Source: Blattabacterium cuenoti
Lineage (GTDB): Bacteria; Bacteroidota; Bacteroidia; Flavobacteriales; Blattabacteriaceae
Direction of reading: 5' to 3'
Assembly: GCF_014251755.1 (NCBI RefSeq)
Contig: NZ_CP059200.1
Span: forward strand, 288,286 to 352,285
Length of the DNA stretch: 64,000 nt
Part shown: positions 24,807-43,293 of the stretch, one piece after another
Layout of the letters: every line of letters begins with the position of its first letter
Position numbering within the stretch: position 1 is the stretch's first letter
Notes under the pieces: model-generated
What the model was told of the DNA's origin: nothing
The model's database searches: none
What the model saw: the letters and a program-made list of their open reading frames with translations, nothing else
Program-made: the position numbers and the translations under genes

Positions 24807-25942
24807 GAAAAAATTCTATTTTTTGCCTGTTTCAAAATTTTTACTGGACAACACATAGAAAACCTTACATATCCTTTTCCATTATGACCAAACACTCTCC
24901 CAGGTGTCACAAAGATGTGATAATTTTTTAGAACCTTGTCTGACCATATACGATCATTGTTATCTGAATCAGTGATTTTGGCCCAAACAAATATTCCAGA
25001 ACTATTTTTGTCATATTTTAAATTGAAAAAATCACATATATCCCATAGAATTTTTTTTCGTTTAAGATATTCTATATTAAGTTTTTCAACCCATTTTGAA
25101 TCATGATTCATGGCTTCTATGGCTCCAATTTGGATGGGATAATACATTCCAGAATCCATTTGACTTTTTATTTTCAATATATTCTGAATGAATTTTTTTT
25201 TTCCTATAATCATTCCAACACGCCATCCAGGCATATTGTAACTTTTACTTAAAGAATTTAATTCTAAAGCTATATCTTTAGCTCCTTTCACATTAAAAAT
25301 ACTGAAAGAACGTTTTTTATTCAAGATCAAACTATAAGGATTATCATGAACCAGTAATACATGATTTTTTTTCGCAAAAAAAACAATTTGTTCTAATTTT
25401 TCAAAAGAAATCGTTGCCCCCGTAGGCATGTGAGGGTAATTAATCCACATCATTTTTGCCTTTGACAGATTTTCCAATCTAGGAAGCCAATTTTCATTTT
25501 CATAAAGATCATAATAAATAATTTTTGCTTCCAAAAGTTTTGATATAGAGGAATAAGTAGGATATCCAGGATCGGGAATTAAAACCTTATCCCCTTGATC
25601 TAAATAAGACATACTTATATGCATAATTCCTTCTTTAGAACCCATTAATGGTAAAATTTCATTTTTAGGATCAACATCAACTTGATATATTTTTTTATAC
25701 CAATTAGAAATAGCATTTCGTAATGTTTCTATTCCAATATAGCTTTGATAAGTATTAGCATTCTTTAATTCTGACGCTTGTTTCATTTTCTGTATAACTC
25801 CAGATGGAGGAAGAAGATCTGGATTTCCAATTCCTAAATTGATGATTTTCAATCCATTTTTTTCAAAATTTTGAATTTCCTTCATCTTTTCTGAAAAAAA
25901 GTATTCCGATATTTGATGCATTCTTTTTGCGGATACAATCAT
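24803..25942 (-). CDS. Class I aminotransferase of the aromatic operon
   Basis: This PLP enzyme lies between the pheA relic and tyrA and is therefore the likely transaminase for 4-hydroxyphenylpyruvate (and formerly phenylpyruvate). The 379-residue product has LGIGNPDLLPP near residue 36, HDNPYSLI near 199-206 and the PLP lysine in SLSKSYNMPGWRVG (Lys233). The usual NPTG motif reads MPTG (172-175). Its ATG shares its first base with the pheA relic's final stop codon (TAATG) and its end overlaps tyrA by 4 bases. It could also act as a diaminopimelate or aspartate aminotransferase, since LL-DAP aminotransferase-like proteins share these features. Confidence 0.85.
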   Translation of the reverse strand: MIVSAKRMHQISEYFFSEKMKEIQNFEKNGLKIINLGIGNPDLLPPSGVIQKMKQASELKNANTYQSYIGIETLRNAISNWYKKIYQVDVDPKNEILPLMGSKEGIMHISMSYLDQGDKVLIPDPGYPTYSSISKLLEAKIIYYDLYENENWLPRLENLSKAKMMWINYPHMPTGATISFEKLEQIVFFAKKNHVLLVHDNPYSLILNKKRSFSIFNVKGAKDIALELNSLSKSYNMPGWRVGMIIGKKKFIQNILKIKSQMDSGMYYPIQIGAIEAMNHDSKWVEKLNIEYLKRKKILWDICDFFNLKYDKNSSGIFVWAKITDSDNNDRIWSDKVLKNYHIFVTPGRVFGHNGKGYVRFSMCCPVKILKQAKNRIFS

Positions 25943-26232
25943 TAGGATCTAATTCTACCATTTTTATATTCTCCCATAATAGACAATTGATGAAGACAAG
26001 GAATTTTTTGTATTTGTTTATAACAATTTTTAATAATGAAAAATCTGGTAAAATTACTTGTAATAGTTGGTATATTCTTAAAAAATGATCTACATACCAT
26101 AAAAACAGTACATTAGAATCGACAATATCCCCTAAAACATTCCATTAACTTATAATTACATCCTTCAAAATAGCTGAAAACAGCTGCATGATGAAAACAA
26201 CCCTTAAACCCTTGTATCGATATTTTTTTCAT
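25942..26232 (-). pseudogene. pheA: Decayed prephenate dehydratase gene (pheA relic)
   Basis: One continuous reading frame of 97 codons runs from an ATG at 26232 to a TAA at 25944-25942. It is interrupted by a TAA at 26115-26113. The N-terminal part reads MKKISIQGFKGCFHHAAVF, the typical Bacteroidetes PheA start. After the stop comes ITSNFTRFFIIK, the conserved catalytic NxTRF motif of prephenate dehydratase. The end, LSIMGEYKNGRIRS, matches the end of the ACT regulatory domain. A working enzyme needs about 270-280 residues, so most of the catalytic and ACT domains are deleted. The ending overlaps the aminotransferase start, as in an intact pheA-aminotransferase-tyrA operon. An in-frame ATG at 26259 would add nine codons. 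Confidence 0.9.
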
Positions 26233-42006: not shown

Positions 42007-43182
42007 TTAAATCATTTTCACACGATAATTCAATCCTAAAATAAGAAAATGATCATTATTCTTTTCTTTTTTAATTTGATCTAAATTGTAATTTATTCTA
42101 TAATTTTGATATGCAATAAAAAAACTAATATCATCATTTTTTATGATAGGAAGAAATTCTACACCTCCATAATAAGTATATATTTTTTGAAACAATTCAT
42201 TTGGTCCCAAAATATTATTTATTTTTTTCTTATAGCTCCCTATTTCATATACTCCTTTAGCAATTAAATTCCATTTTGGAAGAAAATTATATTTTAATTT
42301 TACTAAATAGGTTCCATATTTTACAGAGACAATATCATAATTATAATAATAATCACGATTCCATGATCGTGAAATGCTCTTATTTGTTTCTATGTCTTCA
42401 TTGCTCAATATATAGTCTGTTTCTATGGTGACAGGGGTATAATTGAATTGACTACCTAAAGCTAATAATTTCCAATATTTTTGTTTTTCATGTTCTTGAA
42501 AAATAGAATAGGACCATCTATTTTTTATGATTTTATCATCATGATCATGATCATGATCATGATCATTATTTGGTGGATTCATACCCCAATTCCAATTTAC
42601 AGAATATCCCATAGGATAATTGATGTCTTGAATTATCATATTTCCTTCTTCCTGTCGTTTCATATCATTGACAACTTGAAATTGTAACTCATGATCTTTT
42701 ATGGGATGATAAATAAAACTGAATCCAACATAATTATTATTTTTGTTTCTTTTGTGTACATGTGTATAACGGTATGCGTGTTCATAGGGTCCACTAGCAT
42801 ATTCCATACTTCCAAAAGAAAAAGGTTGTTTTCCAAACAAAAAATCAAGTTTATCGTTCCACTTATATTTTAAATAAGCTACATCTAGCATGTTATAATT
42901 TTTGTTTTCTATTTGTTTAACAAACTGTTTTGTAAAACAATAACTGATTTTATCATTTGCCTTTCCTATCACTTCCAAATTGAAATTGTTTTCAGAAAAA
43001 TGAGTATTTTCAGAAATGTCTTCTTTCATTCCAAAATGAATACTATTCGAATAATCTAAAAATACGTTAAAATTAGGATTTTCATCTATTGTTTTTTTTT
43101 GTTGTATGATTTCTGAAAAACTATGAAAAGGATAAAAAAATCCTAAAAAAAGAATCAGGAAAATAATTTTTGTTTTTTTCAT
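42007..43182 (-). CDS. Predicted outer-membrane beta-barrel porin
   Basis: The product starts with a clear signal peptide (MKKTKIIFLILFLGFFYPF, from the ATG at 43182; the frame also opens 21 bases earlier). It continues with alternating aromatic/polar strands such as DVAYLKYKW, KLDFLFGKQPFSFGS and a terminal LILGLNYRV, typical of porin-like barrels (OprO/P-like, my inference). At 391 residues it is complete. A likely surface loop holds an Asp-His repeat (DHDHDHDHDD) encoded by tandem ATGATC hexamers at about 42537-42574. Solute specificity is unknown. In a bacterium inside host vacuoles it would be a route across the outer membrane. It is divergent from ftsK. Confidence 0.75.
   Translation of the reverse strand: MKKTKIIFLILFLGFFYPFHSFSEIIQQKKTIDENPNFNVFLDYSNSIHFGMKEDISENTHFSENNFNLEVIGKANDKISYCFTKQFVKQIENKNYNMLDVAYLKYKWNDKLDFLFGKQPFSFGSMEYASGPYEHAYRYTHVHKRNKNNNYVGFSFIYHPIKDHELQFQVVNDMKRQEEGNMIIQDINYPMGYSVNWNWGMNPPNNDHDHDHDHDDKIIKNRWSYSIFQEHEKQKYWKLLALGSQFNYTPVTIETDYILSNEDIETNKSISRSWNRDYYYNYDIVSVKYGTYLVKLKYNFLPKWNLIAKGVYEIGSYKKKINNILGPNELFQKIYTYYGGVEFLPIIKNDDISFFIAYQNYRINYNLDQIKKEKNNDHFLILGLNYRVKMI
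42537..42574. repeat. Hexanucleotide tandem repeat (ATGATC)n inside the porin gene
   Basis: About six units of ATGATC/GATCAT encode alternating Asp-His in the minus-strand porin. Its in-frame unit size means copy-number changes would lengthen or shorten a loop without breaking the gene. Confidence 0.85.
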
Positions 43183-43293
43183 TTTTTTAATTTTATTATT
43201 CAATCATAATATAACATAATATATAAAAACTTTTTTAAACTATTTGTTTTGGTTTCAAAAAGATTAAATTTTTTTTCCAAAACTATAAAAAAA

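Follow-up and report, generated by a model that had tools for sequence, protein, structure and literature searches.

In one Blattabacterium genome the gene for prephenate dehydratase, pheA, is a pseudogene, and it is very likely that its decay belongs to a recent and narrow reduction in the supply of essential amino acids (phenylalanine, leucine and isoleucine) that leaves prephenate to go to tyrosine only. Blattabacterium lives as a symbiont in the fat body of cockroaches. The relic lies in a stretch of 64,000 nucleotides, which we analyzed as a whole and refer to as the window. The genome that holds it (G000) is a single contig of 625,920 bp and is 99% complete; the evidence on it comes from one assembly, without reads, and from a single contig without the small plasmid that is usual in the genus. 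Our comparison set was 49 Blattabacterium genomes, made up of G000 and 48 congeners (36 + 12).

The closest relative in the set has an intact pheA and served as the reference for the relic. This genome (G035; 632,490 bp) we take to be BPAA, the strain from the wood-feeding cockroach Panesthia angustipennis. At the pheA locus its DNA is 96% identical to that of G000 over 3.2 kb. In a tree of three neighbouring proteins, the two genomes were sisters with a support of 0.975, and G005 was next with a support of 1.0. Across the window, synteny and gene content were near-complete between G000 and G035, and pheA was the only one of about 50 window orthologues without an intact counterpart.

The decayed gene has kept the position and parts of the sequence of pheA (Table 1). 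On the minus strand it translates as MKKISIQGFKGCFHHAAV...F*CTVF...SNFTRFFIIKN...IMGEYKNGRIRS* (asterisks are stops), with an in-frame TAA at 26113-26115, and its terminal TAA shares one base with the ATG of the aminotransferase gene that follows. An earlier note on this DNA had described pieces of PheA in order on the minus strand, including the in-frame TAA, the NFTRF motif and the ending IMGEYKNGRIRS, together with a final stop overlapping the next gene and at least 170 missing codons. The translation confirmed the pieces, the overlap proved to be a single base, and alignment to G035 put the net loss at about 182 codons (278 codons in the intact G035 gene and 96 codons plus a stop in the relic). 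Two stretches of the relic matched intact G035 PheA in the pairwise comparison (E values of 4e-19 and 5e-16), and at the DNA level both of its ends aligned to the pheA found at the syntenic locus in most congeners, indicating that the relic is pheA and not a chance resemblance. It lies upstream of the genes for the aminotransferase, TyrA and the DAHP synthase/chorismate mutase, as expected by descent, and the T-R-F motif that comes late in the catalytic domain is present as NFTRF. The full-length frame of the genus (about 278 codons) is absent, and there was no match at the curated cut-off of the PDT family (PF00800) in G000, the relic included. Based on the retained position and similarity and the missing PDT match and full frame, we conclude that the relic is a pheA pseudogene and not a working member of the family.

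Table 1. Positions in the window of the pheA relic, its parts, and the genes of the tyrosine arm.
Feature	Position	Strand	Details
pheA (prephenate dehydratase) pseudogene	25942..26232	-	291 nt of ancestral ~837 nt
N-terminal piece kept, PheA codons 1-32, 28/32 identical to G035	26137..26232	-	alignment, pairwise comparison
Scrambled junction zone, several deletions (~nt 96-468 in the intact gene), holding scraps and the in-frame TAA	26080..26136	-	
Piece kept with NFTRF motif, about codons 164-184 of intact PheA	26017..26079	-	alignment, pairwise comparison
Junction left by the in-frame deletion of 210 nt in the ACT domain, reads AAACAAA	26009..26019	-	alignment
C-terminal piece kept (IQKIPCLHQLSIMGEYKNGRIRS), codons 256-278, identical to G035	25945..26013	-	
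Class I/II aminotransferase, intact, 379 aa	24803..25942	-	dN/dS 0.21 vs G035
tyrA, prephenate dehydrogenase, intact, 282 aa	23958..24806	-	dN/dS 0.25; NF006307 above cut-off
DAHP synthase / chorismate mutase fusion, intact, 358 aa	22869..23945	-	dN/dS 0.36

The gene was broken by more than one event. An alignment with pheA of sister strains, which the earlier note had suggested, was made against G035 and resolved several deletions. Those around nt 96-150 are small, most of the sequence at about nt 110-468 is missing, with a few tens of nucleotides left as scraps, and there is a single 210-nt deletion (nt 555-764) that removed 70 in-frame codons, comprising most of the ACT domain. In some relatives, AAACAAA is present at both ends of the 210-nt stretch, as read by eye from the alignment, and direct repeats of this kind are expected of slippage between short repeats. 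The relic also carries changes at sites that are nearly constant among 40 strains: Q167P (Q in 39 of 40), S19F (S in 36 of 40) and A5S (A in 38 of 40). A search for RNA families near the pheA locus found none.

There was no substitute prephenate dehydratase in the genome. We searched the whole of G000 for the PDT family and found no match, and the same search found its target in 14 of 14 control genomes. An intact PDT gene was present in all 48 congeners (36/36 and 12/12), and in these, two-contig genomes included, the single PDT match was chromosomal. A search of G000 for SBP_bac_3, the family of the PheC-type dehydratases, also found no gene. Of the two candidates considered, a second pheA and a PheC-type dehydratase, neither was thus found in G000.

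The genes of the tyrosine arm are intact. All three (Table 1) are full length, have the expected domains and are under purifying selection (dN/dS of 0.21-0.36, compared to a median of 0.21 for 50 window genes), and aroA is intact as well; on these grounds tyrosine synthesis looks functional. The DAHP synthase/chorismate mutase gene ranked 45 of 50 window genes in dN/dS. The aminotransferase is the weakest part of the argument. The NCBIfam models that fit it best are those of LL-diaminopimelate aminotransferases, with scores below the cut-off, and it may serve other pathways, such that its conservation supports tyrosine synthesis only weakly.

The window also holds a rapidly changing surface protein. 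The Porin_O_P outer-membrane porin (42007-43203, minus strand, 398 aa) is 72% identical to its G035 orthologue and has a dN/dS of 1.87, with changes on both branches; no other gene of the window exceeds 0.56. Judged from these sequences, the cell surface seems to be evolving rapidly or under positive selection.

Genes for leucine and isoleucine synthesis have been lost from the same genome. A broken gene of the PALP family at G000:C1:99.9 kb is ilvA, as indicated by its G035 orthologue and by TIGR02079; a 778-nt deletion removed its middle and left scraps. We considered trpB as the identity of this gene and ruled it out, as the NCBIfam models point to ilvA and an intact trpB is present elsewhere (G000:C1:228954-229919). 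The adjacent gene for the acetolactate synthase small subunit, ilvN (G000:C1:98.4-98.8 kb), lacks one base next to an A tract and may be inactive or rescued by slippage. ilvC is intact, and so are the two large genes before it, which from their size and order we take to be ilvD and ilvB. At G000:C1:576347-577127, about 5.2 kb have been deleted relative to G035, and leuA, leuB, leuC, leuD and much of an adjoining 517-codon gene (no Pfam match) are gone, scraps aside.

The losses from G000 are narrow. Within the stretches that we examined, thrC, a putative hisC and trpB each lie in a complete block of genes. G000 has three Lyase_1 genes, compared to two in G007 and G036, and the third, which we take to be argH, is intact. 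Thus, among the genes examined, those for the synthesis of tryptophan, histidine, threonine and arginine and most of those for valine are intact. Together, the pheA, ilvA and leu losses amount to 6,517 bp, and in total G000 is smaller than G035 by 6,570 bp. This indicates a narrow change, with the reservation that the size difference is a net one in which other indels can cancel. The earlier note had held that pheA is a deletion relic and its product inactive, that the DAHP synthase/chorismate mutase, aminotransferase and tyrA genes are intact, and that the bacterium has undergone a specific change, relevant to host cuticle chemistry, to making tyrosine and no phenylalanine. Most of this stood: a second intact pheA was sought genome-wide and not found, and the tyrosine arm is conserved. 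The word "specific" did not, as the whole leuABCD operon and most of ilvA have been lost too.

Phenylalanine synthesis has been lost only in G000 among the 49 genomes. leuA was missing in six (G000, G060, G026, G007, G036 and G013), and an intact ilvA was missing in the same six; a few further genomes had lost ilvA alone. All five of the other genomes without leuA and ilvA, Cryptocercus and Mastotermes strains included, have kept pheA, making the phenylalanine loss unique in this set. G035 and G005 retain pheA, leu and ilvA, which places the G000 losses on its own terminal branch, in parallel with the losses seen in the strains of Cryptocercus and Mastotermes. G035 also has an intact ilvN, unlike G000.

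Two of these strains can be compared with published descriptions. We take G007 to be BCpu, from Cryptocercus punctulatus, and G036 to be BMda, from Mastotermes darwiniensis. Both have lost leucine and isoleucine synthesis genes, as has G000, but they are far from G000 in the tree, keep the pheA that G000 has lost, and have lost argH and trpB, both kept in G000. Strains from these hosts have lost several essential amino acid pathways, including those for branched-chain amino acids, and the loss has been linked to gut symbionts or social transfer (PMC9603385). Their published reduction is about 50 kb, in contrast to 6.6 kb in G000. In one published reconstruction of seven genomes, retention was complete except in the Cryptocercus and Mastotermes strains. 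It is therefore already known that Blattabacterium can lose the synthesis of essential amino acids, and the loss of pheA is a variant of this that may already be listed in the largest published comparisons.

Other genomes of the set had broken genes of the same kind. In G066 (G066:C1:100726-101935), ilvA is split into two frames of 362 and 80 aa, apparently an early stage of ilvA loss or a frameshift error. Stop-ridden remnants of the PALP family were present at G013:C1:552689-553045 (ilvA-like) and at G010:C1:203543-204187 (in the position of trpB), which suggests further recent losses of amino acid genes in the genus.

We propose that G000 lost its supply of three essential amino acids through the decay of branch-specific steps. 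pheA is the only gene for a phenylalanine-specific enzyme, and several deletions, at least one of them probably by slippage between short direct repeats, destroyed it after G000 and the Panesthia angustipennis strain had diverged. The DAHP synthase/chorismate mutase still makes prephenate, which can then be turned only into tyrosine, through TyrA and the aminotransferase. With leuABCD and ilvA lost on the same terminal branch, the pattern is one of narrow erosion of supply. We infer that symbiont and host get phenylalanine, leucine and isoleucine from the diet or from gut microbes; selection would therefore have been relaxed, and the three branch-specific steps would have decayed. Enzymes shared with products that are still needed would persist, namely those for tyrosine and, in the case of the ilv genes, valine. 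Tyrosine synthesis would have been kept since the host still uses tyrosine.

An alternative is that the loss of pheA was itself favoured, because all prephenate would then be turned into tyrosine for tanning of the host cuticle. We consider this unlikely. It would agree with the retention and conservation of tyrA, with the finding that removal of the symbiont from Blattella germanica alters the phenylalanine and tyrosine metabolism used for the cuticle (PMC11050582), and with the existence of beetle symbionts specialized on tyrosine precursors (PMC10284843, PMC8113238). In two of the latter, Nardonella and Shikimatogenerans, the shikimate pathway has been kept and serves the tyrosine branch, as in G000; in the beetles its output is used for the host cuticle (PMC8113238, PMC10284843). 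However, leucine and isoleucine, which have no role in tanning, were lost on the same branch as phenylalanine. This parallel loss speaks for a general cause, and a relaxed need for a number of essential amino acids accounts for the three losses together without selection for tyrosine. Moreover, the host is itself able to convert phenylalanine into tyrosine. The likeness to the beetle symbionts is in output only, with no shared family claimed: they are extremely reduced and have few other pathways, whereas G000 keeps most of the other amino acid genes examined and retains tyrA and an aminotransferase. A link between the loss of pheA and cuticle chemistry is conjecture.

It is also conceivable, and in our judgment decidedly improbable, that phenylalanine is still made, through spontaneous dehydration, an unrelated enzyme, or a dehydratase borne by a plasmid or the host, followed by an aminotransferase. 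Prephenate is acid labile and forms phenylpyruvate non-enzymatically to some extent, and trace synthesis of phenylalanine is therefore possible; intact aminotransferases remain, and a plasmid is not part of the assembly. However, G000 has no PDT and no SBP_bac_3 homologue, the dehydratase gene of the congeners is on the chromosome, and the loss of leucine and isoleucine on the same branch fits supply from outside better than it fits hidden enzymes.

Equally, we give very little credence to the relic being a functional short element, for example a frame of 52 codons that begins with the ATG at 26100, ends on the start of the aminotransferase gene and keeps translation coupled. The ACT-domain deletion and the overall loss both have lengths divisible by three, the last 23 codons do not differ from those of G035, and the overlap of stop and start has been preserved. 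A recent loss accounts for the same facts, though, the numbers are small, and the other pieces that were kept have changed at conserved positions. That pheA is intact in the living bacterium and was broken by an assembly or sequencing error is barely credible, even with a single assembly and no reads, because the lesions are several and independent, with scraps between separate indels and derived amino acid changes at conserved positions, and comparable relics of ilvA and leu are present while about 50 other window genes are intact.

A recent and narrow loss of phenylalanine, leucine and isoleucine supply is the reading that we prefer. All other Blattabacterium examined keep phenylalanine synthesis, even those that have lost leucine and isoleucine synthesis. 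We tentatively suggest, at somewhat less than even confidence, that G000 represents the first Blattabacterium lineage seen to drop phenylalanine and yet keep tyrosine, and that its narrow loss of three amino acids, with gene content otherwise almost unchanged, may reflect a new outside source of these large hydrophobic amino acids in one cockroach lineage. G000 and G035 differ in little other than three amino acid functions, and this sister pair is a clean natural comparison with which one can ask when a host stops needing the essential amino acids of its symbiont, and whether tyrosine has a value of its own, separate from that of phenylalanine.
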